Origin: Chamaelirium japonicum | Lineage: Eukaryota > Streptophyta > Magnoliopsida > Liliales > Melanthiaceae | Direction of reading: 5' to 3' | DNA length: 64,000 nucleotides | NCBI GenBank assembly: GCA_947650365.1 | Contig: OX393553.1 | Coordinates: 67,553,716 to 67,617,715, forward strand | Shown here: piece by piece, positions 23,231 through 64,000 of the stretch | Numbering within the stretch: position 1 is the stretch's first letter | Layout of the letters: every line of letters begins with the position of its first letter | The notes under the pieces: generated by a model | Told to the model about the DNA's origin: nothing | Databases searched by the model: none | Seen by the model: the letters and a program-made list of their open reading frames with translations, nothing else | Position numbers and translations under genes: made by a program

Positions 23231-23844
23231 TGTGGGTGCAAAAATTGTACCGGACCAGATCAGAGCAGCACGAGCCCGTGCAACGGCCCAAGTGGGTAAG
23301 CCTGCCTGGGCTCACATGGGCCCACTCTACGAGGCTCGCAGATCAAGCCCTCCCCCTTATTGGGCCCGAACAACGGCCCAATAAGGGTCCAGCAAGGAAG
23401 CCCAGAACCAGTGCCATGTCATCAGCGCCACGTCATCACTGCCATATCGGGCATGTGCCTACGCTATAAAAGGACCCCCAAGGCATCCAGGAAGGGGGTT
23501 GGTCATTCAATCAGAGGAGGAGGATTCCAGAGCAAGTGCTAGAGCTCAATTCTCTTCTTCTTGTACTCTTCTAGTTGCTCCGTGCAACCCCACTGTAAAA
23601 AGCTTCTCTCGGCCTGTCGAGAGAACGCTTCCCCACCATTTACTCAAATTATAGTGAAGATCAGGTGGCACCTCTCGCCCGGAGACGTAGGTCGTAAGAC
23701 TGAACTCCGTCACCAATCATTGTATCATCACTCCCTACACTCTGTATCTACTCTCTTATCTCTCTAACTCTATAAACCATCGAATTCAATCAAGGCTGTG
23801 GGGTGGGATTTTTGATCAAGACGGCTAGGAAATTTCCCCCCACA
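23231..23844 (+). repeat. 5' LTR of element A
   Basis: Begins TGTGGGTGCAAA and ends TTTCCCCCCACA. A clear TATA box (TATAAAA) is at 23465-23471. Confidence 0.95.
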
Positions 23845-23849
23845 ATCTT

Positions 23850-23867
23850 TGGCGCCGTCTGTGGGAT
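23850..23867 (+). promoter_or_regulatory. Primer binding site of element A
   Basis: TGGCGCCGTCTGTGGGAT begins five bases after the 5' LTR. It is the same PBS as Gypsy C. Confidence 0.85.
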
Positions 23868-23984
23868 ATCGATAGAGGTCTTACCCACACCTCTACCGAC
23901 TCCTATTCAGCTTGTGGTGACGAGCCACAAGTCCTCCTCCAAATCAACCTCAACGCCTTCATCACGCCGACATTAACACGCTCG

Positions 23985-24431
23985 ATGGTGAAGGCCAGCA
24001 CCAACCCACCAAAGGCGGGTGCTGATCGGACAATCGACGTGCTAATCGAAGAAGAACAAGAAGTCTCGGTTGCAACCAATCGAAGAAATGTTTATAAGCG
24101 ACTGGGGCCACAAGGAAGTCATCCGGGAAGCCACAGCAATCGGCAGGACCCACCATTCCCGAGGCAACAATCTGGCAAAGAGCACGCCACCCAAGGGGAC
24201 AACGATCTAACTACATACGAAATTTCGGCTGCTGATTTCCAGCTGTTGAACCTTCTCAAGAGGAACGCAGCCCTCGAGCAAGAGAGGGATTCCCTAAAGA
24301 AGGTAGCTGGAAGAGCGGGGGTTGTGGCCCACAACTCTCCAACTGCTAATGAAGACCAACCAAAGACCTTCGATTCTGCCCATTCAGGTCGGAAGCTCGA
24401 AGGCCATTCGGCTACGCCCTCTCGAGGCTAA
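23985..24431 (+). pseudogene. Truncated gag of element A
   Basis: Starts MVKASTNPPKAGADRTIDV at 23985. The frame includes ISAADFQLLNLLKRN and LEQERDSLKK, the Gag N-terminal helix seen in B and C. After NEDQPK it runs directly into array 1 (TFDSAHSGRKLEG) and stops. Compared with element B, the capsid and zinc-knuckle parts are missing, about 1.5 kb deleted at a short sequence match (see findings). What is made, if anything, is a 148-residue Gag fragment. Confidence 0.8.
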
Positions 24432-25220
24432 AGTCCGATAAAAAGGCTCCTGGCAACCCAGGTCAATCAAAGACCTTCGATTCCGCCCATTCAAGTCGGA
24501 AGCTCGAAGGCAATTCGGTTACGCCCTCTCGAGGCTAAAGTCCGACAAAAAGGCTCCTGGCAACCCAGGTCAACCAAAGACCTTCGATTCCGCCCATTCA
24601 AGTCGGAAGCTCGAAGGCAATTCGGCTACGCCCTCTCGAGGCTAAAGTCCGATAAAAAGGCTCCTGGCAACCCAGGTCAACTAAAGACCTTCGATTCCGC
24701 CCATTCAAGTCGGAAGCTCGAAGGCAATTCGGCTACGCCCTCTCGAGGCTAAAGCCCGATAAAAAGGCTCCTGGCAACCCAGGTCAACCAAAGACCTTCG
24801 ATTCCGCCCATTCAAGTCGGAAGCTCGAAGGTAAGTCGGCTACGCCCTCTCGAGGCTAAAGTCCGATAAAAAGGCTCTTGGCAACCTAGGTCAACCAAAG
24901 ACCTTCGATTCCGCCCGTTCAAGTCGGAAGCTCGAAGGCAATTCGGCTACGCCCTCTCGAGGCTAAAGATCAATAAAAAGGCTCCTGGCAACCCAGGTCA
25001 ACCAAAGACCTTCGATTCCGCCCATTCAAGTCGGAAGCTCGAAGGTAATTCGGCTACGCCCTCTCGAGGCTAAAGTCCGATAAAAAGCTCCTGGTAACCC
25101 AGGTCAACCAAAGACCTTCGATTCCACCCATTCAAGTCGGAAGCTCGAAGGCAATTCGGCTACGCCCTTTCAAGGTGAAAGTCAGATAAAAATGCTCCTG
25201 ACAATCCAGGTCAAGCTAAA
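24361..25220. repeat. Array 1 of element A: eight 107-bp units
   Basis: Unit starts CAAAGACCTTCGATTCCGCC and recurs every 107 bp (24361, 24468, 24575 and so on). The inverted pair CCTTCGA / TCGAAGG lies within each unit. Element B has eight homologous units. Confidence 0.92.
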
Positions 25221-25309
25221 CTATCAACTATACTTATCCGAGGCAATGAGAATAAGTCCAAGGCAGGCGTCGTCGCTTTGACATGCACCAAGTTCAAGGA
25301 GACATCCTT

Positions 25310-25620
25310 GACACTCGAAGACAAAGTCCGAGGCGACCAATGCCTCGGCACTCTACAAGCCCAAGGCCCGGTCCTTGGCACCCGTAGACAAAGTCCGAGG
25401 CGGCCAATGCCTCGGCACTCTACGAGCCCAAGGCCCAGCCCTTGGCATTCGAAGACAAAGTCCGAGGCGACCAACGCCTCGGCACTCTACAAGCCCAAGG
25501 CATAGCCCTTGGCATTCGAAGACAAAGTCCGAGGCGACCAACGCCTTAACACTCTACAAGCCCAAGGCCCAGCTCTTGGCATTCGAAGACAAGGTCCGAG
25601 ACGTCGTCGCCGATGTATTG
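25310..25620. repeat. Array 2 of element A: about four 67-bp units
   Basis: Each unit holds two short hairpins: CCGAGGC / GCCTCGG around GACCAAY and CCAAGG / CCTTGG around GCCCAGC. Element B has about fourteen units. Confidence 0.9.
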
Positions 25621-25996
25621 GCATTCGATCAAAAGTCAAAGCTTAGTCTTGTCACTCAGGTCTAAGCATTAGATTGTCAATGACCATCACCTTTTCTCGA
25701 CGACTAACGGTTCCAAGCCGGTCAGGGGGTGGTTAGTCTGACTCTGTCAGTGCGTGTCTCCACACTGGTGCAGTCGACGGTGGGTAACACGGGATAAAAT
25801 GGTGCTTCCTTGATCCTGGCCAAGTCAACACCCTCACTTGACCGTAGTACCTGATGAATACAGTAACCAGGTGCGGTAATACGTTGGGTGAAGACCGGCT
25901 GGCCATCATGCGGCGTCATCCTAGATTATCTCTAAGAAACCCCCTCAAATATAGCGTTGTCCCTCGCCGACATCCCCGCGCGCCAGAGTTTTACTG

Positions 25997-26063
25997 AAAA
26001 AGTGTCGGTTTCAAATGGGGCTGAAATTCGAAAAACACACTATTTTCAATACCGACACTTTTT
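25997..26063. repeat. Conserved stem-loop before array 3 in element A
   Basis: AAAAAGTGTCGGT (25997-26009) and its exact complement ACCGACACTTTTT (26051-26063) enclose 41 bases. A related pair is kept in element B (about 63270-63345). Confidence 0.8.
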
Positions 26064-26089
26064 GGCCTCTTCTAGCAGCCCCAATAATG

Positions 26090-26518
26090 AGGTGTCGGCA
26101 TCAAGCAGCCCCCCCCTCGGTTTCGCACAAAAACCGAGTGGGGAAGGGGTGACGGCACACCATCAGTAGCACACCCCTCGGTTTCGTCAGAAAACCGAGA
26201 GGGGGTGTGTGTCGGCGTCAACAAGCAACCCCCCCTCGGTTTCGTACAAAAACCGAGTAGGGAGGGGGTGACGGCACAACAAGCAACCCCCCCTTAGTTT
26301 CGCACAAAAACCGAGTGGGGAAGGGGTGACGATACACCATCAGCAGCACACCCCTCGGTTTCGTCAGAAAACCGAGAGGGGGTGTGTGTCGGCATCAACA
26401 AGCAGCCCTCCCTCGGTTTCGCAGAAAAACCAAGTGGGGAGGGTGCGACGGCACACCATCAGCAGCCCACCCCTCGGTTTCGATAGAAAACCGAGAGGGG
26501 GGGTGCTCGGCGCCATCC
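26090..26518. repeat. Array 3 of element A: CTCGGTTT hairpin repeats
   Basis: Seven blocks in which CCCCTCGGTTT and AAACCGAG(A/T)GGGG form arms around loops such as CGCACAA or CGTCAGA. They are separated by GGTGTGTGTCGGCRTCAACAA or GACGGCACACCATCAGCAG. Confidence 0.9.
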
Positions 26519-27235
26519 AAACTTATTAGGCAATCCAATTCAAGGGGCATTCGCACACAAGGATCAGCCAAAGACGAAGAGTTATCTTCCATTGGGTTGG
26601 TTGAATAGCATCTCCACCAAACCTATCGAGTTGGCTGTACAAACTTCACAAGCAAAATTCCTCCTTTTTATCTGGGGGTGGACTCGTGGTAACCGCCGTG
26701 TCATCGCTAGGGCCCGACTGCAGTCCCTAGTGAATACAGTAACTAGGTGCAGTTGGGTGTCGAACAGAGACGAATGAGTTACCACGTGTCGATGCCTCTC
26801 CAAGACGCGCGTAGGACACTCGGCCAATGCGTTCTTTAGAGTCATCTCTTTATGAAGGTGATTACCGGAAAAATTACTCGTCAAGGTGTATGATGTTTCA
26901 CGTCCACTTTGACCGGTTCTTCGGCGCCTACACAATGACACCTTATACGCATTCATCCGACGCACATATGAAAAGTTATGGCTGTCGAAAGTTTTCAAGG
27001 TCTTTTTCTCCAAATACATGTATTGGAAATATTACACGCAAAGTTATAACAGTCGGAAGTTTTCGAGGCCTTTTCCTCCGAAGGCAGGCATCCGAAAGGT
27101 CACACGTCAAGGTGTGCGATGTTTCACGTCCACTTTGACCGGTTTTTCGGCTCCGACACAACGACACCTTATACGCGTTGATCCGACGTGTGTATGAAAA
27201 GTTATGACTGTCTGAAGACCTCGAGACTCTTACAC
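26519..27235. other. Left flank of the APR capture in element A
   Basis: Sequence absent from the corresponding place in element B. It contains a diverged copy of the A/B spacer (GAATACAGTAACTAGGTGC at about 26732). It also holds two direct copies of a roughly 120-bp block (GTCAAGGTGTRYGATGTTTC, starting about 26879 and 27107). No gene is seen. Confidence 0.6.
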
Positions 27236-27279
27236 GGAGGGAAAGATTACAGAGGAGGTTGATCACGAGCATTGATCTC

Positions 27280-28185
27280 ATGGCCTCCGTTGCTGCCTTC
27301 TCGGGTTCCATCTCCCTGCACACAATCGTCCCCCGCGAGCCCAGAACGGCCCAGATCAGCGCCACCAGGCATCTGGAATCCTCACCGACGGCCAAAATAC
27401 CTCCCCGGCGGCGATTGATGGCGAGGCCCGCCCGCACCGTGGAACCGCATCGTAGGAGCGAGTCGCTCGCTCCCTTTGGCCGCCGCGGCGACGACGACGG
27501 GGGTGGAGGGCCCGGAGAGGACAAGGGAGGAAGAGGATCTCGATTGCGAGAAGCTCGCGGCGGAGCTGGAGCACGCCTCCCCTCTCGCGATCATGGATCG
27601 AGCCCTTGAGCGGTTCGGGAACGACATCGCCATCACCTTCAGTGGAGCGGAGGATGTCGCATTGATCAAATACGCTCGGCTGACAGGCCGGCCTTTCAGG
27701 GTCTTCAGCCTCGACACCGGCCGGCTGAACCCGGAGACCTACAGGTTCTTCGACGCCATGGAGAAGCACTACGACATCCACATCGAGTACATGTTCTCGG
27801 ACGCATGTGGAGGTGCAGGGGCTCGTGAGGACCAAGGGTCTCTTCTCGTTCTACGAAGACGGGCACAAGGAGTGCAGCAGGGTGCGGAAGGTGAGGCCGC
27901 TGAGGCGGGCCCTCAAGGGCCTCAGGGCTTGGATCACCGGCCAGCGCAAGGATCAATCCCCGGGGTCCAGAGCCCACATCCCCGTTGTTCAGGTCGACCC
28001 TCGAAGGCATGGACGGCGAAGCCGGTGGCCTGATCAAGTGGAATCCCGTCGTGAACGTCGACGGCAAGGACATCTGGAGTTTCCTCCGAACCATGGATGT
28101 CCCCGTCAACTCCCTGCACTCACAAGGCTACGTGTCGATCGGGTGCGAGCCGTGCATGAGGCCGGTCCTGCCGGGGCAGCAAAGA
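27280..28185 (+). pseudogene. APR: Captured adenosine 5'-phosphosulfate reductase (APR) sequence, frameshifted and truncated
   Basis: APR is a plastid enzyme that reduces APS to sulfite. The ATG at 27280 opens MASVAAFSGSISLH, a transit-peptide-like N-terminus. After a frame change near 27475 come [38 protein letters not shown] and [19 protein letters not shown]. After another near 27798 come [39 protein letters not shown] and IPVVQVDP. After a third near 27985 come [35 protein letters not shown] and RPVLPGQ. Then a CT/GA-rich repeat begins and the C-terminal thioredoxin-like half is missing. The Fe-S ligand pair CC is CS here (Ser codon 27876-27878), while CEPC is kept. No intron-like gap is seen, suggesting capture from mRNA. 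Confidence 0.88.
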
Positions 28186-29085
28186 GAGAGAAAGGAAAAA
28201 GAGAGAGAGACGACTGCTCTCTTGCACCCGCTCTCTCTCGCATGGATCCCTTCTCTCACCAAGGGCTCTCTCTCGCACCCGCTCTCTCTCGCATGGGTCT
28301 TCTCTCTCGCCGAAGGCTCTCTCTCGCACCCGCTCTCTCTCTCGCATGGGTCCTCTCTCGCACCCGCTCTCTCTCGCACGGAGCCTGCCTCGCAACCGAT
28401 CCGATCGGCCGAGCCGCCCTTCGTCGCTGGCGTCGCCTAGACCCTGCGGCCCGACACCGTCGCCTGCCCCGCGCCCGAACTGATCACCTCCTCCCGTGCC
28501 GCGGCCCGACACAGCCGCTCGTTGGCCTCCACGCTGCTGCTGCTGCTGTTGTTGTATCGCGCGAACCAGAGACGGCAGATTGCCGACGTTGGGCGCTTGG
28601 TGGCGGTGTCGATGCCACCCACATCGGCGTTATGTCTGCTACGATGTCTCCTTGTATGGTCAACAGCAGCGCTCCGTTTGAAATACATCGAGGTTCTGTA
28701 GGCATCCTCACGTGAATGCATGAAAGCTGAAATGGAAAGAGAGGGCGGGGTAGCTGCAGCCTCACGCGTGAATGCATAAAAGCTGAAATGGAAAGAGAGA
28801 GAGAGAAAAGAAAGAGGGAAAGAAATTCAAAAGCCAAAAGTAGTAAGAGAGAGAGAGAAAGGAAAGAGAGAGAAGGACGCTGCTCTCATCTTCATTCCGG
28901 ATTTTTTTTGTGGGATATACCGGATTCACGAGGGAACGTACCGTTTCGCATCCGAGCGGGGTCCGGGAGGTCTTGTACCATGGGACGGCTGTGATGCAGC
29001 TGGACTCAGATCTAATGCCCATTCTGCCAAGAAAATAAGGAAAGAGAGAAGCCAAAGAAGGAATAAAGAGAAAAGCTATTCTCTC
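28186..29085. other. Right flank of the APR capture: CT/GA-rich repeats and unknown sequence
   Basis: Repeats of TCTCTCTCGCACCCG / CTCGCATGGG type (28220-28385), a short CTG run (about 28532), and a duplicated block GTGAATGCATRAAAGCTGAAA (about 28713 and 28769). No recognisable protein. Confidence 0.6.
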
Positions 29086-29089
29086 ACCA

Positions 29090-29400
29090 AACGGGTCTCG
29101 GTACCCTCTCGGTAACCACTCGGTATGCTGTCGGTACCCACTCGGTATGCACTCGGTACCCTCTCGGTATCCACTCGGTCGGAAAACGCACTGTCTTTTC
29201 GGAAACACCCCCTTGCAAAACCGAGACTTTTTGGCTTGCACCAAAAGGGTCTCGGTAACCACTCGGTATGCTCTCGGTACCCACTCGGTATGCACTCGGT
29301 ACCCTCTCGGTATCCACTCGGTCGGAAAACGCACTGTTTTTTCGGAAACACCCCCTCGCAAAACTGAGACTTTTTGGCTCGTGCCAAAAAGGGTCTCGGC
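29090..29400. repeat. Array 4 of element A: CTCGGTA repeats
   Basis: Two long, nearly identical blocks of CACTCGGTATGC, CTCTCGGTACCC and GGTCGGAAAACGCACTGT, each ending CAAAA(C)(C/T)GAGACTTTTTGGC. The same array follows array 3 directly in element B. Confidence 0.85.
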
Positions 29401-29523
29401 ATCGGCGGAAGAAGGCTCTGCTAATGCGAACTGCGGCACCGACAACCCTCGCCAACCGCGCCAGGATCCTAAAGCGTTTGCACCTTGGAATCCCAGCCGA
29501 CCCAGGGGGTCCTGACCCGACTG

Positions 29524-29535
29524 GGAGGGGGTAAC
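29524..29535 (+). promoter_or_regulatory. Polypurine tract of element A
   Basis: GGAGGGGGTAAC directly before the 3' LTR, identical to the PPT of Gypsy C. Confidence 0.85.
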
Positions 29536-30149
29536 TGTGGGTGCAAAAATTGTACCGGACCAGATCAGAGCAGCACGGGCCCGCGCAACGGCCCAAGTGG
29601 GTAAGCCCGCCTGGGCTCACATGGGCCCACTCTACGAGGCTCGCAGATCAAGCCCTCCCCCTTATTGGGCCCGAACAACGGCCCAATAAGGGTCCAGCAA
29701 GGAAGCCCAGAACCAGTGCCACGTCATCAGCGCCACGTCATCACTGCCATATCGGGCACGTGCCTACGCTATAAAAGGACCCCCAAGGCATCCAGGAAGG
29801 GGGTTGGTCATTCAATCAGAGGAGGAGGATTCCAGAGCAAGTGCTAGAGCTCAATTCTCTTCTTCTTGTACTCTTCTAGTTGCTCCGTGCAACCCCACTG
29901 TAAAAAGCTTCTCTCGGCCTGTCGAGAGAACGCTTTCCCACCATTTACTCAAATTATAGTGAAGATCAGGTGGCACCTCTCGCCCGGAGACGTAGGTCGT
30001 AAGACTGAACTCCGTCACCAATCATTGTATCATCACTCCCTACACTCTGTATCTACTCTCTTATCTCTCTAACTCTATAAACCATCGAATTCAATCAAGG
30101 CTGTGGGGTGGGATTTTTGATCAAGGCGGCTCGGAAATTTCCCCCCACA
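29536..30149 (+). repeat. 3' LTR of element A
   Basis: Same ends and length as the 5' copy, with TATAAAA at 29770-29776. About half of the differences between the copies are C/T transitions. Confidence 0.95.
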
Positions 30150-30848
30150 GTCATCGAGTTTCTTCTTGAGTAGACCAAAGATAGCTCTATTGGAGGCTTC
30201 GGCTTGGCCATTGCATTGGGGGTACCTTGGAGTTGAGTAGAAAAGTTTGATCCCGTTGTTGAGGCAGAACTCACGGAACTTGTCGGAGTCGAATTGAGCT
30301 CCATTGTCAGCAACAAGAACTTGTGGCGTGTCAAATCTCGAGAAGATATTATGCCTGATGAACTTGATGACTTCGTCATCAGTTTCTCGAAAGAGTGGTA
30401 CCGCTTCAGCCCACTTGGTGAAGTAATCCGTGGCTAGCAGCAGATACTTCTTCTTGCTTGGCGTTGGTGGGAAAGGACCCAAGAAGTCCAACCCCCACTG
30501 ATGGAAGGGCCATGGGCTTGTTAGCTGATGGAGGCCGTCTGCTAGAAGGTGGATAGCTCGAGCATGTCGCTGACAAGGCTCGCACCTTTGGACCACTTGA
30601 TGAGCATCTCTCGCCATTGTTGGCCAGTAATAACCTTGAAGCTTTGTCTTGGCTTCAAGAGATCTTCCTCCCGAATGATTTCCACAAGCTCCGGAATGGA
30701 TATCGACGAGTATCGCCTTTGCTTGTATGGGGCCAATGCACTTGAGTAACATCCCATTGTGCGATCTGAAATATAGATCATCTTCTTGGAGAATATAGCA
30801 TGGGAGTTTCCTTTGAAGTCTTCTGGCTTGCATTGGGTCTTCGGGCAT
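30150..30848 (-). pseudogene. Integrase zinc-binding and catalytic core of Gypsy C
   Basis: The zinc-binding domain shows H...H before CEPCQRH. The catalytic triad is D in WGLDFLGP, D in VADNGAQFD and E in NGQAEASNRA. It is interrupted by element A after KKKLDD, with ATGAC (GTCAT on the plus strand) duplicated. It follows the second RNase H in the same frame after one in-frame stop (30879-30881). Confidence 0.93.
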
Positions 30849-31529: not shown

Positions 31530-33896
31530 TGTTGGAATGATATTGGAGGCGCAGCGGAAGGTGGAGTCGATCCCGAGGATCGTTTCGGTGTGCGGTACAT
31601 TTTAAAATTTTCATTCATATTAATCATATGCGTAAATGATAAAACAAATACGAATCGAACCCCTATAGTCATCTATCGAAATGATTGACATATCTCATAT
31701 GTATGCATTATGATAGATCTAGGGGTTAGTAGGTTATACCTTCGTGCGGTATTTAACACCGCGAAGAATTGCTTCAATATTGATGAAGACAAATTCGGAT
31801 CTGCACGAACACCTTTCAGTGCAAAGGCCGTAACTTTCTATCCCAACATTGGAACGGAGCGAAACTTGATTTTCCGGAAAGAAGACTTCAACGCCAAGAG
31901 TTTGCAACCGGTTTGAAGTCATTTGGACTTTTATAGCTCCTTCAGTGATCAAAACAATGCAGATCTGCCCGTAAAATCTGGGCAGCAATCTCGAGCCGGA
32001 TCCTCATGCAAGAGAGAAATGAATCTCATCGGATTCACCCGATCTCACATATCATCCCGGATCCTTGCACTCTAATCTCTGAGTGCCTCAGAGTGCAAGC
32101 GATCTCCATCAATCTCACACACACACTTGGAGAAGAAGATGAGGGAGAGAGAAGAGATGAACCCAAGAGAGAGAGATGACAAAAATCCGAACCATAAGCG
32201 AAGGGGCTTTGGTTCTTCATCGGAAAAAATGAGAAGGATGCATTATTTCAGATCTAAAAATCGTGCCCCTCACTCTCTCTTGTCATTTGAAACCGTTCCT
32301 CTCTCTCTCCCTCTCATTACTCTCAAATTCAATGCCCATTTTTAATACTAGTTGCCATATTAGAATTGTTGCAATTAAGGAGATGATTCAAAATCATTCA
32401 AATCTGAATTAATCCCTTAATTATAAGTTTGATGGCCATGCATGCTAGCCCTAGTGAGGATGGCGGCCACTAGGGCATGCGGGACATTTTGTAATGACCA
32501 AAATGCCCCCATGCATCTAGTGGTCGTTCACCTCATGCGGGACAATGTATGGCCCATCTACGTGCACGATAATGCACCCTAACACTTAGGGCACCTCATC
32601 GGCATCAGCAACAAGTCAATACACCATGGGATGATGAATAGTATTTTTACTATTTACTAGGGTGCCCTTAGTAAAAGGTGGGGTGCCCCATAGTAAAAAT
32701 TACTAAACTCGCATTCTGCGTTCTAGTGCAACACGCACACACGGAATGGACTCCTCATGGTATAATGGCAACATCGTATGTCTCTACACTACTCTGGGGT
32801 TGCCCCCTAGTGAACACACTTAGTCCTGTGCTACCACCATGCTCCAGTGCGATGCATTCACGGAACACAGGACGATTAGGCATTATTTCTTCAACTCATA
32901 ATATGCTGTGAGACAAGGAAAAAAGTATTGATCCGTAATGATCGTGGATAGGGTGGAACCTTCAGGGACTAGGATTCATGGCTTCCAACCGAACCCGATC
33001 GATACACTACCCGAGTGTCCCTGTCAATCCTCTGGGTCCCGGTTAACCTGCATGGCCACCCAGAGTGCGACGCAGGCTGCACTCTAATTCTCCCAGACTT
33101 ATTAAGCTCTCTCGCATACCCCTGTTCTCCACTTAGTATTGGTAATACAATGTCCCTCCACTTGGTGCCATGAGTCAACTTGAGCGGTGGAGAGCACCGT
33201 CAGACTCGATTGACCATATGACTAGGTTCCTTCCAGGTTGACTATCACATCGCACCTCCGATCGCTTTGGCCAAGCAACCAGATCCGGTCAACAGCTCAA
33301 CTGCTGACCACCAGGCCTGGGTTTAGTGCGGTGTATGTCATACCAAGGAACGCACCTACCGATAAGGATGTGGATGGCCTGCAAGAGTGGCGTGCCGATG
33401 CAACGTCAGCCCGGTAACCCAGCGCACCGTGGTCTTGGGTCGTGGTTAGATCCCTCACACGTTGGTGAACCAAAGTTACACGCAACTGGTTAGTCCATCG
33501 GTCACGGTTCCTCAGGGTTTAGGACCGATTACCCTAAGCAGAAACACGGCTATGTGCACCGGTGTCTGCTCACCGATCTGTGCACCGTGTTGGTTCTGTT
33601 CGGCCACAGACACTGTGCCTGATAATGACCATTATGGAGATTCTCATGCTCTGTCATTCCAACAGCTTATCCTGATAGGGCGACCAACCCAAATCAGAGC
33701 TGTGAACGATTTAGGCTCATAGGACCGATCCACTGAGTCTCCCACTCAGATGGACTACTATATAGCCATGGCTCCTTAAGTTCTTTAAATAGAACACGTA
33801 TAATAATACGTACCTTTATACAAACCTAAATAAACTATCAACCATATACAGCCAAACCTAGGGTTTTACGAGCTGTAGACCACATCAAACCTAACA
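31530..33896 (-). repeat. 3' LTR of Copia D
   Basis: Plus strand TGTTGGAATGATA...CAAACCTAACA. Short open frames are shared with the other LTR copy and are not genes. Confidence 0.93.
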
Positions 33897-33907
33897 ATCT
33901 CCCACTT
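33897..33907 (-). promoter_or_regulatory. Polypurine tract of Copia D
   Basis: Minus strand AAGTGGGAGAT immediately before the 3' LTR, the usual Copia form. Confidence 0.75.
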
Positions 33908-34599
33908 GGTCTAGCGAGGAAAAACGGTCATGAGCTCTATAGCTTCTACATGCTGCCCAAAAGCCTTTGCAGGAATTCCCTAAAGGAATCTGCAACATTA
34001 TCTGTAGATGCTAACTCGATTACCGCCACTTGCCTTTCCTCCTAAAACTACCAGATCAAGTAGAATTCGTATTTGATATGTTTCCCCTTTATGGTGGTGC
34101 CTAGGCTCTTGCTACCGCTCTTTTGTTATTACAACAAAAAACTGAGCCTCTGGTATGCTTTTCAAGTTTACTATAAACTTACCAAGCCATACCACCTATT
34201 TTCTTGTCACGCACGCTACAATGTGCTTAGGCTTCTGTAGTAGAGCCCGTGATGCATTATAGCTTCACACTCTGCTAACTAACCGCTTCTCATCCCAAGG
34301 TGAAAACTATACCTGAAGTCGATTCTCTAGATTACACATCTGATGCTAAATCAGATCTTGTGCATCCAATCGGCGTCAAGTCTTGTGAAGTGTAAACTAA
34401 CTCGTAATCCTTGTTTGACGAGGATATCGAGTATACTCTTCACATCAGTCCAGCTAACTGGACCCGGATTCGACTAAAACCGACCCTCCATTCCTGCTGC
34501 GCAACAGATAACTAGCATCTTATACATTCATGGCATACGACTACCCTTTGCATAAGCATAGGGCACCTTCTGTATTTCTGCCATCTTCTTAGGTGTCAA

Positions 34600-37140
34600 A
34601 TGATTTATATCATTCGACAGTTTCAAGCTTTAGCAAGAAACCCCTTTTGGAGTCTTGTATATTGATTCTGGCTAGAATCATATCTCTATGTATAGCTTGT
34701 GATAGCGTGAGAATCTTGTTCTGATGATCTCGAGTTACCATGATCTCCAGAACATAACTCGCCTCACGAAGGTCTTTCAGTCGAATTAAGATAATAAACA
34801 AACATTTAACTTAGGCAACGTTCCTACTTCATTTTCAATCAGTAGAACATCGTCTATGTAAAGTACTAGGTACACCCCTATAGTTTCATCGCTCCTCTTG
34901 TACACACTTGGCTTATTTTGATCAAATCTGTATGAATAGATCATACTTGATCAAGATAGATATTGTTTCTCCTGGATACTTGCTTTAGTCCATAAATGAA
35001 CCTTTTGCAATTCTGTAAGCCAGGTATTCCTGACCTGCTAACTCCTAAGCCTGGAAACTACATCATATATCCTCTCTTCTGCCAACTTCTACCCAATGGG
35101 CTAAGTTGCTAGGTGCGCAAGCCTTAGATTCAGTATACGCCCACTCGAGGGAGGGTGCGCACAGTGATCCGCTTACACGGGTCTTTAACTTTGACCCAAT
35201 CCAAATATGCTTTAATAAAGCTTTGATGAACCCTGGTACAAAAGAGTATCACTGAACACTGATGCAAGCTTTGTCTCCATGACTTTCTGTTAGACAGTTC
35301 TGTCAAAAAATTTCACTACTTCGTCGTAGCTCAAGGGGCCATCCTCTTGAATTTATGGACTAATTCACAAAGTTTGTCCACAAAATCTTTCAAGAGCTCT
35401 AATGGTGCTCCCACTGCAACAAGATGGTTGTGGTACAAAGCAAATTATTTCTACAGTTTCTGGTATACTAGTGTCTGCATCATCTATTACCACTACGTTT
35501 CCGATCATGCGCTCTCCACTAGTATCCAGTAATTCACCCAGAACTACCTTACTAGTGAACATATGGTCTATAATAGAATCCCGCTCTAGGTAAATGGCAT
35601 TCGTAGAAACGATAACCTTCTATTCCTCAGGATCATGGATAGTCCACCTTATATTTTTCTAGGATAACCTATAAACAGATACACCTTGAACTTAGTCTCC
35701 ATCTTATCCCTCTTGTCCTTCTGCACATATGCAGGACATCCCCATATACTAAAATGCCGTAGTATAGGCTTTCGCTCAGACCACAGCTTTTCAGGGGTAT
35801 GAGGCACTGATTAGATGAGATATTATTCAAGATATACTCTACTGTGTCTCAAGGTGTAACCCATAGAAGGTGGGTAGTAAACTTGGCAAAACTCATCATT
35901 CTTTAGACCATGTCCAACAGGGTCTGATTCCTTCTCTTGGATATTCCATTCTGGCATGGTGTCCCTGGAGCAATTAACTGGGATATCATCCCATGCCCCA
36001 TCAGGTACCTATGGAACTCATCCAATGGATATCATCCATCTGGATGCTCTTGGAACCACATACGTCAGAATGGGCAAAATCCAATACCTCAGTGGCCCTT
36101 TTTAGTTATTTTGCCTTCCAAACAAGACTCGCAGGTCGGAAGGGTCTCCAAGGGGTCTGTATCTAGAAACTCAGCCTTCACTAACCTTTGAATTATGTCT
36201 GAGACAATATATCTAAGTCATAGGAGCCACAATTGGATTAAGTTATCCCAAGGAAAAAGATGAATATGAATTAGATACTACGGCTATCATGTAATCTATT
36301 TTCGAACTAGATTTTAATACAAAGAGATTATTATGAACTATTCCTTTAGCAATGAAGGTACCTATTCAGTTTAAGAGATGCACTAAAGCCATGGAATAGA
36401 ACTGAAAACCTTTATTTAGCTTGGAGAAAACATAACTAAATCTCTAAGGATCAAAATTCTTCTATCGAAAAATCTAAGATAATATATTAATAGCTTCTGC
36501 AGTTGTTATGGTATCAGTATCTATGTTAGGACCACCTTACCAATAAGTAGCCTTCTACTTTTCTTGAATCTCTATAGACACGAAGTCCATATTTCAAGAA
36601 GCAGAAGCACTGCTACTAGATGGCAATTCGACTCTACCAAGAGTTGATGTTTACCTGTCCTAGCACCCTGAGACCATATGTTCAATCTTCCAATGCCCCT
36701 TATGTTGCCATATCGGAAGCACTTTCGCACTAGGCTTCACTAGACTTAAGAGTCCGCTCCTGATTCTATACAGTCATTGTTTTTAGTTTCTGATCAGTTC
36801 TTACTTTTAGGCACTTCATAGAAAGCCTAAGTTACGCACTAAAGGAATTACCTTTAATCTTGATCCCATCCTTAGTGACCTGGATAGCTCCCAGAAGTTC
36901 CGCATTTGTCATCTCCAGCTTGTAAAGGCTGAAGTCTCTGACAAAGCCTTCAAAGGTTCTATATAAGGATGCAAGACAGATGTTCTCTATCACCTCGACA
37001 TCTAGCACTATTTCAAAGAAAACCAGTTTGCTCTGGAACCCAAGAATGTGTTTCCAAACCAGTATTCCATCAAACATCTTAGTGCTGACGAGTTTCTTGA
37101 TGGTGAGATAGCGAGTCATTTGACTGCGCCCCTCAGACAT
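34600..37140 (-). pseudogene. Degenerate gag-pol of Copia D
   Basis: A Gag-like frame lies at 36832-37140 (ENICLASLYRTFEGFVRDF, then LEMTNAELLGAIQVTKDGIK). An integrase core fragment lies near 35905-35978 on the minus strand (APGTPCQNGISKRRNQTLLD). The RT active site LYIDDVLLI is at about 34839-34865, followed by a broken form of the DLGEASYVLGI block. All are separated by stops and indels, and protease and RNase H cannot be recognised. It codes for nothing functional. Confidence 0.75.
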
Positions 37141-39153
37141 CTGATGCTGTAACAGAACATTACATCAGAGGACCCGACATATGTCTGATTTACTTCTGAA
37201 GAGTTGTCTGCAAGTATGCTATGACATAGCACTTGCACATCTCTATAGACTCTCGTTAGTCGTTATATGCCCTATCCTGTACTACAGTGGCATCTAGACC
37301 CGATAGGTCTGGTTTAGGGACATTAAGATTTATAGCCATTGTAGTTTACTAACCCTAAATATAAGATCATGATGGCATTACCGGTCTACGAAGTCGGTAC
37401 CCGTTATCTAGTTCTCTAATGGGATAGCGGACAGGGAATCTATGGTTGAATATAGATTGTATTAAAACTTATTTTAAGGATATTATTAAAACAAGCTAAT
37501 TACATCCATATGCCAACGCTACCCTCAAAGCGAAGACATTTCCATGGAGTAATTTACCATGTATGCGAGATCTCAGATTCGGATACACCCGCCCGAGGGG
37601 GCAGTGTGTATCGTCCTCCGCTCACATCGGATCTTTCCGACCCAATCCAAATCTGCCACAACCGGACTATGATGGACCATGGTACCTTTTGGCCAGCCCC
37701 CCGTGATCTCCATGCGACGCAACGGGTAGCCTCACGGGTGCTTCGGATGCTTACCCACCAGCCTAGGCAATCACGACACGGGAGTTCATGCGGCCCCCGC
37801 GAGGGCGGGAAAAGCCCTTCTCTCCTGGCATCGTGACCACCATATCCCGAAGGAGACTGCTAAGCCTCCGGCATGACAGAACATAACTCTCACCTGAGGG
37901 GGATGTTGAGTCATACCCTATCACCCAGAAATTCAGCAATTGGCCGTGGAGGCCAGGGGCACTCACACTGAGTCCTCTTTCACATCCCTTAATTATGGTG
38001 AGGGTTATTTTAATGCAAGTATTTTAGTTCCTAGGTTGCGACAACCTAGACCTAGACCCTGGTCATACCGCGCTCCCACTAGAGTTAAGACCTCTTATAA
38101 AGTATAGATAGACTTGGAAAGGACCATAGTCCATATCCCGTGGATACTCAGTTGTCACCTTTCTCCCGAGAATCACATTACGTACTCTCCAAGCCTTCGA
38201 TACTAAATAAAATGATCATTACCCTTTATGCTCTAGAGCCTAGCCTATGGTCTAGACATACTAGGAAAGGTCTCCCATTAGTATGACTCCTCATATGTAA
38301 CTTGATGTCTGATGTCGTAGATGATCACCACATCACTATTGGTTTCGATGTCAAACCAATTAGGGATATCCGACAACCTCCGTCGGACCTCTACTTAACG
38401 GTGGCATAACCGAGTGTTATGGGATCCAACTACCATCAAACACCAATTAGACTACGGGTGTCAATAAATAGAGATCTAACCTAATGGTCTCATGGACCAA
38501 GTGGGGAAAAGGCATCCCACAAATAGTGGGGAAAGGGCATCCCACAATCTAACACATACTGCATCAGATTATATTCTTTCACCGGGGTTTAAAGAAATAT
38601 CCAAACCAAAGAAAAAATAAACATCCATTGATATCAAGTTCAGGGTCCGACCCCTGAACCTGACTAGCAATGCTCTGACATTTCTTCAATGGCATCTTCC
38701 AAATATTCCTTACTTTGGGCCACCGCGCTCAGTCCTCCAGTGATGAATCTCTGATCTATCCTTGTCCTCTAAGACTTCAACCTGTAACTGAAAATACTAG
38801 TACGCTCCGAGCAATTGCTCGTTCGTACATATTTTCCTAGGTAGAATAATAAAGACAAGAATAGAAATAAGGGCCGGGAAAAACCAAGCCGTGGTCAACC
38901 TCCACGCGCTTGTCCCATTAGGCCTTATATTCATCCATCACAAAAACAATCGAAATACCATGCAATTATATTTCGGGGTCCGACCCCCGAAAGCAAACAA
39001 TCACACTATAGCGGTGCCCTGCAAAACACACTATGCATAACATGCGACATATATGAATATATGATCTACGCAAACCCCGGTGACGCATTCGTTCATCAAA
39101 TGCACATACGATTTGTTCCATGAAAATTTTTCTCATGAATCGCACACCAAAAT
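37141..39153 (-). other. 5' internal region of Copia D
   Basis: Between the PBS and the Gag trace. No coding frame is recognised. It contains scattered degenerate sequence only. Confidence 0.4.
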
Positions 39154-39166
39154 GGCTCTGATACCA
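39154..39166 (-). promoter_or_regulatory. Primer binding site of Copia D
   Basis: Minus strand TGGTATCAGAGCC, two bases after the 5' LTR. Confidence 0.88.
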
Positions 39167-39168
39167 TT

Positions 39169-50716: not shown

Positions 50717-50964
50717 TGTAAAGTTTTTCAATCCAAAACCCTTACCTTACTTTGGCTGTACATCATATGGTATATAGGCTCACGTCCCATGTATAATGGA
50801 AATAAAATCTTACACATTAATGCTGACAATTTATAACAAAATAACTCATTCATAGCTGGTGAATATAATCGGAACGGATCATCTCATTCAATGCCGGTGG
50901 GCTTGCCTTCTTTGCACGGCTGATTTGGCTCAATACCACTGGTTCAGCATGACGTACTTGCACA
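50717..50964 (-). repeat. 3' LTR of Copia E
   Basis: Plus strand TGTAAAGTTTTTC...GACGTACTTGCACA. Confidence 0.95.
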
Positions 50965-50977
50965 TCCCCCCTCAAGC

Positions 50978-53900: not shown

Positions 53901-54375
53901 GATGACCCAAACGAGCATGCCACACGTTACCATCCACCTTATTTGCGAACAACCCAGTCGGAGAAACAGAACCACCACAACTGATTGGGTAGAGGCCGCC
54001 CTTCTTAGGTCCTTCCAGCATCGTCTTCCCGGTTTTCAGATCCTTAATCACGAATCCCCAGGGATAGAACATAAAACAGCAACCATTGTCAGTTGTGAAT
54101 TGCGAAACACTAAGCAAATTTTTCTTTAGCTTTGGAACGATAAGTACACGATCCAAGATAACTGATTTATTAGGTAAGTAAATACGACCGAGATGGGAAA
54201 TAGGTAGCCCAGCACCATCACCAATTAAAACTTTATCATTACCAGTGTAGGGTATCATACCTTCAACCCTGAAGGATGCTCCTGTCATATGATTTGTTGC
54301 ACCTGTATCAGGATACCATGCTGGATCTTGTTGATCAGCCATCTGCATTTGCGGCGAACGATTGAATTGGATCAA
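50978..54375 (-). pseudogene. Pol polyprotein of Copia E, one frameshift
   Basis: Numbered from the M at 54375. Protease PDTGATNHM is near residue 22. The GAG-pre-integrase domain has HARLGH at 153-158 and CGSCKLGK. Integrase has D212 (LHSDVW), D275 (VIQSDGDGEY) and E311 (PEQNGLAERK), with the normal D-35-E spacing. RT runs from WIFKLKH (667) through RQLDVKNAFLHGDL to YVDD (815-818). Near residue 963 (about 51486) the frame breaks. RNase H continues one frame over at 51484-50978 (FSDADWAGCPDTRRSTTGY, SRSSAEAEYRALA, LFCDNISAI). All catalytic residues I can check are present, so loss is recent. Confidence 0.92.
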
Positions 54376-55333: not shown

Positions 55334-55341
55334 GGGTAAGA

Positions 55342-55601: not shown

Positions 55602-55606
55602 TTAGC

Positions 55607-57949: not shown

Positions 57950-58685
57950 TGAATAGATCTAACCATTTGTTTTGGAATTTTTACAGAAAATTCTTTATTA
58001 TATTATTTTAATCATTAATATTTTTGGGATGTTACATCCTTTACCCCTAATAAAATTTCGTCCTCGAAATTTAAAGTACGTACCTTAGTTGTTGAACTAG
58101 TGTATTTCTGACTCTAATTTCCAAGTAACTTCTTCACAATTTTTTCTAATAGTTGAGTCAAGTGACATATTTTTACTTTTGTCTTTCCAAACTTTCTTTC
58201 CCAGAATATTATTTCATTTCCTTCAGGTGTTTATAAGGTAACATTCTTCCGATAACAATTCATCATCGTCCTATATTTGGATAACCAGTCCATGTCAAAT
58301 TTCTCCAATTTTAGTAGAATTAAATTGGCCACCAACTCTACTTCTTCAATTCTTAGTATATAGTTTCTGCAGACTCTGTTTGTTTTGGCTGTATCACTAA
58401 GTGCAGTGGTAAGGGCAAGTATATACCCTAACGGTCCTGTCTTCAATTGTAAGTCTCTAGCCAAGTGAATAGATATGAACGAATGGTTCGAACCCTGACC
58501 TAAAATTACTCTAGCTAGAATTCCATAATGGTGCTTACGAAAATTCAAATTGTTCTGTTTATAACTCACTTATTTTTAATATGAATAATATTCTAAAAGT
58601 AGATTGTTCATACCTTTAATGATGTCGTTTGATTCTTCCTCAGTAGATATTGCAAATGCTTTTCCAGAGCCCTTTATTCTCCCCA
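57950..58685 (-). mobile_element. Internally deleted Gypsy chromovirus remnant (Tekay/Del-like)
   Basis: On the minus strand a Gag end (GSGKAFAISTEEESND) and a protease (VILGQGSNHSFISIHLA, then LILLKLEKFDMDWLSKY; 58231-58569) lead almost directly into TTTCGAGGACGAAATTT and GGATGTAACATCCC. The latter is the typical end of pol followed by the start of the 3' LTR of Tekay-type elements. RT, RNase H and integrase are deleted. The right end is cut at the junction with element B. Confidence 0.7.
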
Positions 58686-58971
58686 TCTTGTTCTCTTCTA
58701 GTTGCTCTGTGCAACCCCACTGTACGAAGCTTCTCTCGGCCTGTCGAGAGAACGCTCAACCCTTCATATTCAAATTATAGTGAAGATCAGGTGGCACCTC
58801 TCGCCCGGAGACGTAGGTCGTAAAACCGAACTCCGTCACCAATCCTTGTGTCATCACTCTTTACTCTCTCTATCTATTCTCCCATCACTCTAACTCTACA
58901 AATCGTCCATATTCAATCAAGGCTGTGGGGCGGGGTTCTCAGTCAAGGCAGCTCGAAAATTTCCCCCTACA
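58686..58971 (+). repeat. 5' LTR remnant of element B
   Basis: Matches the last roughly 285 bp of the A LTR (from TCTTCTAGTTGCTC to TTTCCCCCTACA). The first half, including the TATA box, is missing. Confidence 0.88.
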
Positions 58972-58976
58972 ATCTT

Positions 58977-58994
58977 TGGCACCGTCTGTGGGAT
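58977..58994 (+). promoter_or_regulatory. Primer binding site of element B
   Basis: TGGCACCGTCTGTGGGAT, one base different from A and C. Confidence 0.8.
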
Positions 58995-59111
58995 ATCGAT
59001 AGAGGTCTTACCCACACCTCTACCGACTCCTATTCAACTTGTGGTGACGAGCTACAAGTTCTCCTCCAAATCAACCTCAACGCCTTCATCACGCCGACAT
59101 CAACTCGCTCA

Positions 59112-60767
59112 ATGGTGAAGGCCAGCACCAACCCACCAAAGGCGGGTGCTGACCGGACAATCGACGTGCTAATCGAAGAAGAACAAGAAGTCTCGGTTGC
59201 AACCAACCGAAGAAATGTTCATAAGCGACTGGGGCCACAAGGAAGTCATCCGGGAAGCCGCAGCAATCGGCAGGACCCACTATTCCCGAGGCAACGATCT
59301 GGCAAAGAGCACGCCACCCAAGGAAACAGCGGTTCAGCTACATACCAAATTTTGGCTGCTGATTTCCAGCTGCTGAACCTCCTCAAGAGGAACACAGCCC
59401 TCGAGCAAGAGCGGGATTCCCTAAAGAAGGCGGCTGAAAGAGCGGGAGATGTGGGCCACAACTCTCTAGCTACTGATGAAGACCAACCAAGGACTCGCCC
59501 GGCCGTGAGTCATCATCTTGAAGAACCACATGTGCCAAAAATCGAGAGGCGTCAGGTATCCACACAAGCACCAAGGCAAACGGTATGGGATCGCCTCAAC
59601 GTCGATGGTGCGCCAAGCTATCGCCGAGAAGGATCGCCTCAGTCAATAGGGTCCACTGGATGTTCTATCCATTCACACATAAAAGCAACAGATGCCTGCG
59701 AGCTGCTCAACCGACTAATGCATACTGCCGACGTGGGACGCCGCCATCAAGATCGTAGGCAGCTAATCACCTCGGTGGGGCCACTATATCCCAAGGTTCT
59801 TGCAACACCATTTCCTATGGGTTGGTGAATACCGAGCTTGCCAAAGTTCAACTGCATCCAGGGAGACTCTGCTCTTCATATCCTAGCCTACAAGCAGGCC
59901 CTGACGCCCTACGAGTATGAGAACCATGTTCTCTGCTGTATGTTTGCGGCAAGCCTCGAGGGACCTGCCCTCGACTGGTACCACACACTGCCTACCGGTA
60001 CGGTGGCCATATTCAAAGAGTTGGCTGAACTCTTCATGGACCATTATCGGCTAAACTTAAAGCCGAAAAAGAGGCTGGATACACTCTACCAGCTGAAGAT
60101 GGGCTCCGACGAGTCTCTAAGAAGCTTCACGATGAGGTTTCGTAATGAGCACTCTGAGCTCACCGGTCGCTCCTATAATAAGGAGGCCATCATGCTGGCA
60201 TTCCAGAATGCTATCCAGCCAGAGCTCCACATCTACACCGACTTCATCCGGCATCCTCCCAGTAACTTGGAAGCGATGTTCAAGCGCGTACAGCGGGAGA
60301 TAGAGGTGGAAGACAATCAGCGGTCCAGAAGACTACGCGAGCCCCGCGAGTCTCGTGACTCCCGACATAAGAAAGATGATGAGGCTCCGAATGAAGCACC
60401 CTACAAGAAGTCTGCCCATGCCACGTCCGACCAAAAGGCCCAGGCCAAAAGGTACAATGAAGATCCGAAAACCCCTCCAGCAGAAAAGAGGCGAATTCCA
60501 AGGGAGCAAAGGGTGTTCACTGAGCTGAACACCTCCATTGAAGACATCTTCACCTACTTGCAGAACAAGCCCTTTTGCAAATGGCCATAGCCTCTCCCTC
60601 CAAATTCCGACCAGGCGGGAGATACGACAGCCTACTGTGAGTTCCATCGCAGCCATGGCCACCCAACCTCTACATGTCGGAAGCTAAAGCATCACATCGA
60701 AGACCTGATCCAAGAAGGGCGGCTCGATGGCTACCTCGCTAACAAGGAACCAGGTCGAGAGAAGTAA
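59112..60767 (+). pseudogene. Gag of element B, with two in-frame stops
   Basis: Starts MVKASTNPPKAGADRTIDV at 59112. One frame continues through ILAADFQLLNLLKRN, a TGA at 59826-59828 and then PKFNCIQGDSALHILAYKQ, ALDWYHTLPTG, LDTLYQLKMGSDESLRSF and EAIMLAFQNAIQPELHIY, to a TAG at 60588-60590. After it come a CX2HX4HX4C knuckle (CEFHRSHGHPTSTC) and EDLIQEGRLDGYL. It aligns along its length with Gag of Gypsy C, so it is homologous to the Gag of a complete element. It is followed by repeat arrays rather than protease. Confidence 0.88.
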
Positions 60768-60949
60768 AGGCAGCAGCAGGGGAGAAAGAAAGTCAACATA
60801 ACACGTAGATGCATAATCATAACGTCCGTTGGGCAACCTCTGAAAAAGTGTAACTGCAACTTTGTTATATCAATAAAGTGTTTTTTTTTTCTCAAAATCA
60901 ACTCTCGAAGTTCGATTCCACCATATTAAGGCATAAATAAAAAAAAGGG

Positions 60950-61830
60950 CTCATAATAACCCAGGTCAACCAAAGATCTTCGATTCCGCCCATTCAAGTC
61001 GGAAGCTCGAAGGTAAGTCGGCTACGCCCTCTCGAGGCTAAAGTCCGATAAAAAGGGCTCCTGATAACCCATGTCAACCAAAGATCTTCGATTCTGCCCA
61101 TTCAAGTCGGAAGCTCGAAGGTAAGTCGGCTATGCCCTCTCGAGGCTAAAGTCCGATAAAAAGGCTCCTGGCAACCCAGGTCAACCAAAGACCTTCGATT
61201 CCGCCCATTCAAGTCGGAAGCTCGAAGGCAATTCAGCTACGCCCTCTCGAGACTAAAGTTCGATAAAAAGGCTCCTGGCAACCCAGGTCAACCAAAGACC
61301 TTTGATTCCGTCCATTCAAGTCGGAAGCTCGAAGGCAATTCGGCTACGCCCTTCCAAGGCAAAAGTCTGATAAAAAGACTCCTAGCAACCCAGGTCAATC
61401 AAAGACCTTCGATTCCGTCCATTCAAGTCGAAAGCTCGAAGGCAATTCGGCTACGCCCTCTCGAGGCTAAAGTCCGATAAAAGGCTCCTGGCAACCCAGG
61501 TCAACCAAAGACCTTTGATTCCGCCCGTTCAAGTCGGAAGCTCGAAGGCAATTCGGCTACGCCCTTTCGAGGCGAAAGTCCGATAAAAAGGCTCCTGTTA
61601 ACCCAGGTCAACCAGAGACCTTCAATTTCGCCTATTCAAGTCAGAAGCTCGAAGGCAATTCGGCTACGCCCTCTCGAGGCTAAAGTCTGATAAAAAGCTC
61701 CTAGTAACCCAGGTCAACCAAAGACCTTCGATTCTGCCCATTCAAGTCGGAAGCTCGAAGGCAATTCGGCTACGCCCTTTCAAGGTGAAAGTCAGATAAA
61801 AATGCTCCTGACAATCCAGGTCAAGCTAAA
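60950..61830. repeat. Array 1 of element B: eight 107-bp units
   Basis: Homologous to array 1 of A, with the same number of units. Confidence 0.92.
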
Positions 61831-61899
61831 CTATCAACTATACTCATCCGAGGCGATGAGGATAAGTCCAAGGCAGACGTCGCCGCTTTGACATGCACC

Positions 61900-62890
61900 A
61901 AGTTCAAGGAGACATCCTTGGCACTCAAAGACAAAGTCCAATGCGACCAATGCCTCGGCACTCTACAAGCCCAAGACCCAGCCCTTGGCACTCGAAGACA
62001 AAGTCCGAGGCGACCAATGCCTCGGCACTTTACAAGCCCAAGGCCCTACCCTTGGCACTTGAAGGCAAAGTTCGAGGCGACCAACGCCTCGACACTTTAC
62101 AAGCCCAAGGCCCAGCCCTTGGCACTCGAAGACAAAGTCTGAGGCAACCAACGCCTTAGCACTTTACAAGCCCAAGGCACAACCCTTGGCACTCGAAGAC
62201 AAAGTCCGAGGCGACCAACGCCTTGGCACTCGACAAGCACAAGTCCTAGCCCTTGGCACTCGAAGATAAAGTCCGAGGTGACCAATGCCTCGGCAATCTA
62301 TAAGCCCAAGGCCCTGCCCTTGGTACTCGAAGACATAGGCCGAGGCGACCAATACCTCGGCACTCTATAAGCCCAAGGCCCTGCCCTTGGTACTCAAAGA
62401 CATAGGCCGAGGCGACCAATGCCTCGGCACTCTATAAGCCCAAGGCCCTGCCCTTGGTACTCGAAGACATAGGCCGAGGCGACCAATGCCTCGGCACTCT
62501 ACAAGCCCAAGGCCCAGCCCTTGGCACTCGAAGACAAAGTCCGAGGCGACCAATGCCTCGGCACTCTACAAGCCCAAGGCCCAGCCCTTGGCACTCGAAG
62601 ACAAAGTCCGAGGCGACCAACGCCTCGGCACTCTACAAGCCCAAGGCCCAGCCCTTGGCACTCGAAGATAAAGTTTGAGGCGACCAATGCCTCGGCACTC
62701 TACAAGCCCAAGGCTCATCCCTTGGCATTCGGAGACAAAGTTCGAGGTGACTAACGCCTCAGCACTCTACAAGCCTAAGGCCCAGCCCTTGGCACTCGAA
62801 GACAAAGTCCGAGGCGATCAACACCTCAGCACTCTATAATCCCAAGGCCGTACCCTTGACACATAAAGATAAAGTCCGAGACGTCGTCGC
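61900..62890. repeat. Array 2 of element B: about fourteen 67-bp units
   Basis: Same two-hairpin unit as in A but more than three times as many copies. Neighbouring units in the middle are nearly identical, which points to recent local expansion. Confidence 0.92.
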
Positions 62891-63354
62891 CGACATATTG
62901 GCATTCGATCAAAAGTCCAAGCTTAGTCTTGTCACTCAGGTCCAAGCATTAGATTGTCAATGGCCATCACCTTTTCTCGACGACTAACGGTTCCAAACCG
63001 GTCAGGGGGTGATTGGTCTAACTCTGTTAGTGTGTGTCTCCACTCTGGTGCAGTCGACGGTGGGTAACATGGGATAAAATAGTGCTTCCTTGATCCTGGC
63101 CAAGTTAACACCCTCACGTGACCGGAGTACCTGGCGAATACAGTAACCAGGTACGGTAGTACATTGGGTGAAGACTGGCTGGCCATCATGCGGCGTCATC
63201 CTAGATTATCTCTAAGAAGCCCCCTTGAATATAGCATTGTCCCTCGCCGACATCCCCGCGCACCAGCGTTTTACCGAAAAAGTGTCGGCTTCAAATGGGG
63301 CTAAAATTCAAAAAACATACTATTTTCAATATCGACACTTTTTGGCCTCTTCTA

Positions 63355-63700
63355 GCAGCCCCCCCTTAGTTTCGCACAAAAACAAAGTAAAGGGGGGTTA
63401 CGCCATCAACAAGCAGCCCCCCCTCGATTTCGCACAAAAACCGAGTGGGGAGGGGGTGACGGCACACCATCAGCTACAACCACCCCTCGGTTTTGTCAGA
63501 AAACCGAGAGGGGGTGTGTGTCGGCATCAACAAGTAGCCCTCCTCGGTTTCGCAAAAAAAAAAAACCAAGTGGGGAGGGGTGCGACGGCACACCATCAGC
63601 AGCCCACCCCTCGGTTTCGACAGAAAACCGAGAGGGGGGGTGTTCGGCATCAATATCAACCCACCCCGTGGTTTCATCAGAAAATCGAGAGGGGGGGTGC
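63355..63700. repeat. Array 3 of element B: CTCGGTTT hairpin repeats
   Basis: Same CTCGGTTT...AAACCGAG hairpin blocks as in A. Confidence 0.88.
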
Positions 63701-64000
63701 TCGGAATCCTCTCGGTCGGGAAAAGTCAAAAGGGTCTCGGTACCCTCTCGGTATACTCTCGGTCGGAAAATACACTATTTTTTCGAGAATGCCTCCTCGC
63801 AAAACCGAGACTTTTTGGCTCGCACCAAAAGGGTCTCGGCATCGGCAGAAGGCAAAGGAGTCTCGGCATCCTCTCGGTCGGGAAAAGGCAAAAGGGTCTC
63901 GGTATCCTCTCGGTATACTCTCGGTCGGGAAAAGGCAAAGGAGTCTCGGCATCCTCTCGGTCGAGAAAAAGCAAAAGGGTCTCGGTACCCTCTCGGTATA
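63701..64000. repeat. Array 4 of element B: CTCGGTA repeats, cut by the window end
   Basis: Follows array 3 with no intervening host segment, unlike in A. Confidence 0.85.

Follow-up and report, generated by a model that had tools for sequence, protein, structure and literature searches.

A spliced host APS reductase mRNA inside a non-autonomous, probably Gypsy family that carries several cargoes at one site

A Gypsy-type LTR element of Chamaelirium japonicum carries a piece of APS reductase (APR) coding sequence that derives from the spliced mRNA of a single donor gene, the APR gene of the host itself. It is very probable that this mRNA was captured by template switching in a non-autonomous, probably Gypsy family, in which gag but no pol was seen. 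The cargo remained mobile after its capture, and several other cargoes are found at the same site of the family. Gene capture by LTR elements is already well known; the novelty here lies in a single site being used repeatedly.

Structure of element A and its sister element

Comparison of the window (the whole stretch of DNA analysed, 64,000 nucleotides on contig C5) with itself delimited element A at 23231-30149 on the plus strand. Its 5′ LTR (23231..23844) and 3′ LTR (29536..30149) are 614 bp each and 98.7% identical, and GTCAT precedes the one and follows the other as a perfect 5-bp TSD. With a near-identical LTR pair, TG..CA ends and a 5-bp TSD, A is an LTR retrotransposon, and the intact-looking LTRs and perfect TSD described in a first-pass annotation of this DNA are borne out. 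The short ORF of A (23985..24428) has no Pfam match and is without a gag core, and its region aligns over 819 bp, at 90% identity, with the stretch of a sister element, B, that leads into gag. Internal tandem arrays with 107-bp, 67-bp and 57-119-bp units (24357..26505; Tandem Repeats Finder) are followed by a stretch with a 226-bp-spaced direct repeat inside (26512..27222), the frameshifted APR cDNA (27223..28180, the end being approximate), GA-rich tracts and other sequence that is highly variable between copies (28171..29087, from purine windows and copy comparison), and array 4 with its TCGGTA-type repeats (29088..29400; Tandem Repeats Finder), all on the plus strand.

Element B (58676..64000, plus strand), which is without APR and is cut by the window end, has a Retrotrans_gag domain (Pfam) at 59838-60587, as have the two genomic copies tested, L012 and L024; a Ty3_capsid match in B (E 4e-4) lies under its cut-off, and no pol was seen in these family elements. 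Since the gag domain is present in B, L012 and L024 and absent from the ORF of A, the core that its relatives carry was apparently lost from A. The earlier description of A as a gag-only Gypsy element is to be corrected in this respect. Positions 26511 and 29088 of A align near 63704 and 63727 of B, which leaves about 26512-29087 as extra sequence in A. The proposed coordinates 26519..29085 are right for what A has in excess of B, whereas the match to the host APR gene is confined to about 27223-28180 (about 960 bp) of this stretch. An insert captured as one 2.6-kb block was rejected because most of 26512-27222 recurs at places without APR; most of this stretch thus belongs to the element, and B has either lost it or never had it.

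A spliced copy of the host APR mRNA

Three overlapping reading-frame pieces in 27476-28190 match Pfam PAPS_reduct (E 3.6e-10, 1e-13 and 6.4e-15). A protein search with a composite of the frames yielded 7423 matches at E <= 0.001 among 7999 scored candidates, and within the best 120 of these the closest is a Phoenix APR (74% identity over 94% of the query), with monocots coming first. The piece extends from the start codon at 27280 through CEPC..RPVLPGQ and stops before HEREGRWWW...ECGLH, in agreement with the earlier reading of an APR coding sequence that reaches the CEPC motif.

The host genome (1.52 Gb) was searched, and its APR gene was located with a date-palm APR query. The sole intron-bearing APR gene lies on the minus strand at C2:81758913-81760575, in four match blocks; its four exons are separated by GT-AG introns that measure 90, 86 and 92 bp. 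The captured piece comprises 57 bases of 5′UTR, exon 1 (27280-27642), exon 2 (27643-28125) and the start of exon 3 (28126-~28180), and matches the host gene in three blocks (93.6%, 93.7% and 90.7% identity) that skip the host introns. Introns 1 and 2 are exactly absent, with joins at 27642/27643 and 28125/28126; thus, the source is spliced mRNA of the host's own APR gene. The first-pass annotation had seen no evident intron in the piece and had named retained host introns as evidence against mRNA capture, and none is retained. Capture together with host introns or promoter was rejected, since the homology reaches just 57 bases upstream of the start codon and leaves the introns out. DNA and protein searches of the host genome found no intronless APR retrocopy elsewhere in it. 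Among the matches listed for the host APR protein, none is above 83% identity, and Phoenix stands at 80% over 95%.

Copies of the APR chimera and their mobility

DNA and protein searches agree on 22 captured APR pieces in the genome and one host gene: the 26 DNA matches consist of the 22 pieces, one of which accounts for two rows, and of three rows for the host gene, and the 57 protein matches fall on the same pieces and gene, plus one weak match to a thioredoxin-like domain only. The capture first described in A is therefore not unique to it. Twenty further loci, which hold the other 21 pieces, were fetched. A 3′ LTR lies behind the APR piece in 19 of them (L020 is the exception), and the upstream APR junction is identical in the 19 loci that reach that far. 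Both element ends are readable in 12 of the 20 loci, and ten of these 12 elements have perfect, mutually different 5-bp TSDs; in the other two, L019 and L021, the TSD is missing and the 3′ LTR continues into an LTR of inverted orientation. Nine of the 12 elements have LTR pairs with 97.8-100% identity, and the LTR pieces of L012, L022 and L024 are 94.3% (indels), 95.3% and 90.1% (indels and mismatches) identical.

The elements' own TSDs at ten of the 12 show that APR travelled with the element repeatedly, in line with the earlier claim that it was already inside A at insertion, and at least 11 sites received the chimera by ordinary movement of the element. Co-mobilisation, also claimed before, agrees with the finding that no independent TSD was noticed around the APR segment, where an old, eroded one could remain. 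At L025 (C19:2829000-2838900), LTRs and APR pieces are arranged in tandem as LTR-APR-LTR-APR-LTR, and a truncated APR piece follows directly on an LTR.

Other host genes in the same slot

With 26512-27222 as the query, a first look at the genome gave 1080 candidate places, and the 40 that were scored consist of ten APR loci and 30 places elsewhere, 24 of which were read as slots without APR. Recognisable pieces of seven other host genes are present in half of these slots (12/24). The N-terminus of a BRR2-type helicase lies in sense in L041 and L042 (L042, the one tested, matches the U5 200-kDa helicase in PDB at E 3.2e-15), and a PPR sequence with an E motif is antisense in L040. A 3′-5′ exonuclease is antisense in L043, L044, L049, L051 and L052; these five copies are 97-99% identical, and PF01612 was matched on L052 at 24.1 bits against a cut-off of 23.6, the others being assigned by DNA similarity. 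An EF-hand protein occurs in L063, in sense, and by DNA similarity in L050. L055 carries an exostosin GT47 piece in sense, with an antisense NmrA-like piece within it, so that two host genes share one slot (480-1170). The antisense cargo of L053, for which Pfam gave no match, is one that we take to be a MYOB-like protein. Array 4 comes after the slot, within the stretch read, in 18 of the 24. Several cargoes are thus found at one site of the family.

The other 12 slots (L045-L048, L054 and L056-L062) show no recognised gene, and Pfam, tried with a single ORF from L057 and another from L047, gave none either. Slot contents without a recognised gene are shared between L046 and L047, among L048, L056, L057 and L058, and among L054 and L059-L062.

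The MYOB-like cargo is a second spliced capture. When it was compared with the genome, three candidates appeared, namely itself, a gene on C10 with 97-99% identity, and a partial match on C1 with 75-80%. A 128-bp stretch of the C10 gene, GTATAA..ATACAG in the sense of the gene, is exactly missing in the cargo, and exact splicing is therefore seen in both cargoes that were compared with their donor genes, APR and MYOB-like. Because the MYOB-like cargo is antisense yet spliced, spliced RNA can give rise to cargo in this orientation as well. A 3′ LTR of the L053 element did not turn up in the 3 kb after the cargo.

Proposed template switching and other possible routes of capture

At the left junction of APR, a 10-base match, GAGACTCTTA, is common to the element (as in L040) and the host, and at the right junction both sides are purine-rich, with no clean match. 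The MYOB-like cargo has about seven shared bases on the left (CGTCCTC) and about six on the right (GAAAAG); these and the 10 bases at APR are candidate switch-point matches. Windows of 40 bases with at least 90% purine start in element A only at 28171, 28791, 28831 and 29031. The APR, BRR2 and exonuclease pieces end at a purine tract and the EF-hand piece starts just past one; for the exostosin and PPR pieces the closest tract is roughly 100-200 bp away, and in L053 no tract remains. Cargo ends near purine tracts, together with these candidate junction matches, fit template switching as in LTR-mediated retroposition, in the accessible parts of the reports on it (PMC5408686, PMC9674220). First-strand synthesis would leave the element RNA at a purine-rich tract and reverse transcription would then enter the APR mRNA within exon 3, at a purine run; copying would continue to near the 5′ end of the APR mRNA and would return to the element RNA at the 10-base match. 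The antisense MYOB-like cargo would fit a switch during second-strand synthesis, if that was the strand concerned. Which strand switched, what the purine tract does and where the enzymes came from are points that we infer from the sequences. Template switching has against it that no RT-bearing partner for the family was identified, that the right junction of APR has no clean match, and that L019 and L021 are without a TSD.

An alternative is capture at the DNA level, in which an intronless APR retrocopy, or the cargo of a Helitron or Pack-MULE, was inserted in one element that was later amplified. A retrocopy would likewise be without introns, and the antisense orientation of several cargoes is simple to obtain by DNA insertion. 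However, only the intron-bearing APR gene was found outside the elements, short matches are present at three of the four junctions examined, and no terminal repeats or TSD were noticed at the APR edges, which makes this route very unlikely. An independent transposon around APR was set aside as unlikely on the same lack of noticed terminal repeats or TSD at the edges, and no long inverted repeat bounds 26480-29110. Alongside template switching as the source of the APR piece, we tentatively consider, with slightly less than even confidence, that the purine-rich tract near the 3′ end is a standing capture site, at which the reverse transcriptase would switch repeatedly to host mRNAs during both first- and second-strand synthesis, so that the family would be a moving library to which pieces of host genes are still being added, such as the MYOB-like piece with its 97-99% identity to its gene, and from which small RNAs directed at these genes might arise. 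The differing slot contents could instead come from a few old captures shuffled by recombination: many slots have cargo in common, as with the five exonuclease copies at 97-99% identity, and L055 resembles cargo placed into L057-like sequence. Such shuffling is nevertheless improbable as an account of the slots, whose cargo comes from at least eight host gene types that are unrelated to one another; moreover, the MYOB-like cargo is single-copy and 97-99% identical to its donor gene, which argues that it was captured separately and recently.

Coding state of the captured APR

Over the 300 codons compared, five of the 22 pieces (L017, L020, L022, L023 and L024) are open, with no indel or stop, and L019 and L021 each have one frame-changing indel inside the APR part, plus stops. 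The remaining 15, including that of the window, have in common an insertion (at 195) and the loss of 5 bases at 720, and a supported branch sets these frameshifted pieces apart from the other seven. Variable sites in the open copies fall at codon positions 1, 2 and 3 in numbers of 23, 25 and 24. Private changes were counted as replacement/silent/stop and compared with a neutral expectation built from the observed mutation spectrum, L025b (identical to L025a) being dropped: 32/20/0 against 32.1/18.5/1.4 in open copies, 12/7/2 against 13.3/7.0/0.7 in near-open copies, and 31/35/3 against 41.0/26.0/2.0 in frameshifted copies. Silent private changes in the frameshifted group are thus above neutral (35 against 26.0) despite the broken frame, an unexplained excess. 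The changes that part the host from more than 90% of the copies number 21, with 12 replacements against a neutral 13.7. No sign of selection for a protein was found in the codon-position, pN/pS or replacement/silent counts.

A functional APS reductase has the ECC and CEPC cysteines, the ECGLH stretch and a thioredoxin-like domain. The captured piece keeps CEPC and lacks ECGLH and the C-terminal thioredoxin-like domain, and C199S in the captured lineage turns the ECC motif into ECS, changing a cysteine that is presumably an iron-sulfur cluster ligand; it is thus short of a functional APS reductase. A coding role is unsupported by the codon-position and replacement/silent counts, and the captured APR behaves as a passenger sequence, with its C-terminal part missing and its frame broken in most copies.

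Small-RNA cross-talk between the APR copies and the host gene may occur, since perfect 24-mers are shared with the host APR mRNA: 198-353 per row in 21 rows (one L025 piece being used), with longest exact runs of 60-103 bases for the window copy and the 20 loci. In maize transposons, small RNAs are described as arising from captured pieces in the accessible text of a review (PMC13317346). The idea that the captured APR is kept by selection, either as a truncated protein or as a small-RNA source tuning the host APR gene, could appeal to these 24-mers, to the five copies that stay open from the APR start codon, and to a pooled pN/pS below 1 (0.64) in open copies; but this ratio is no lower than the 0.50 of the frameshifted copies, the private changes of open copies match neutrality, the frameshifts shared by 15 of the 22 copies did not prevent these from spreading, and the protein has lost ECC, ECGLH and the thioredoxin-like domain. 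Maintenance by selection is therefore extremely unlikely.

Comparison with known systems

Maize Bs1 is an LTR element that contains parts of three host genes (PMC13317346) and, as far as the accessible text describes it, resembles the present family as a plant LTR element with an incomplete gene set in which host coding sequence is carried inside and moved. In Bs1, however, three genes are stacked in one element, whereas here the gene at the one site differs from member to member, and APR is now present as 22 pieces. LTR-mediated retroposition (PMC5408686, PMC9674220) likewise involves spliced mRNA and a partial gene copy, its short matches at switch points may have their counterpart in the junction matches of this family, and the moth case is also inverted, as is some cargo here. 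In contrast to the single chimeric copies in the accessible parts of these reports, capture appears to have recurred here within one plant family at a single position, next to a purine-rich tract. A survey of maize traced the gene fragments in 425 intact LTR elements, of which 168 are Gypsy, to at least 189 captures (PMC2774510). It found no element with pieces of two genes, unlike L055 with exostosin and NmrA, and its accessible part makes no mention of a shared capture site.

Among the papers listed from the open-licence literature searched, none showed a capture of APR or a family in which a single capture site is used repeatedly. Among DNA transposons, namely Pack-MULEs and capturing Helitrons, one family carries many different gene pieces; the family described here differs from these in its LTRs, 5-bp TSDs and exact intron loss. 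LTR captures are known mostly as single cases or survey counts. In the present family, one site shows several captures, sense and antisense, and a single genome allows the donor genes, the exact splice joins, the switch points and the subsequent spread to be read together. The family thus provides a natural experiment on the departure of reverse transcriptase from its template, on the frequency of capture, and on a possible return of small RNAs from captured pieces to essential genes such as APR.

Setting of element A in the window

To the right of A, Gypsy-type integrase and RNaseH domains are found on the opposite strand (rve in 30155-30848), which indicates that A is nested inside another element. 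This outer Gypsy-type element, at 16493-46601 on the opposite strand, carries the integrase and RNaseH domains and has LTRs that are 94.9% identical and, by eye, a TSD of GTTGT; the primer-binding stretch of A resembles its own. Another nested element lies at 31530-41535, with 2.37-kb LTRs that are 98.5% identical and a TSD of GTTAT by eye, and an element at 50717-55602 has 249-bp terminal repeats, 98.8% identical, and a TSD of TTAGC by eye.
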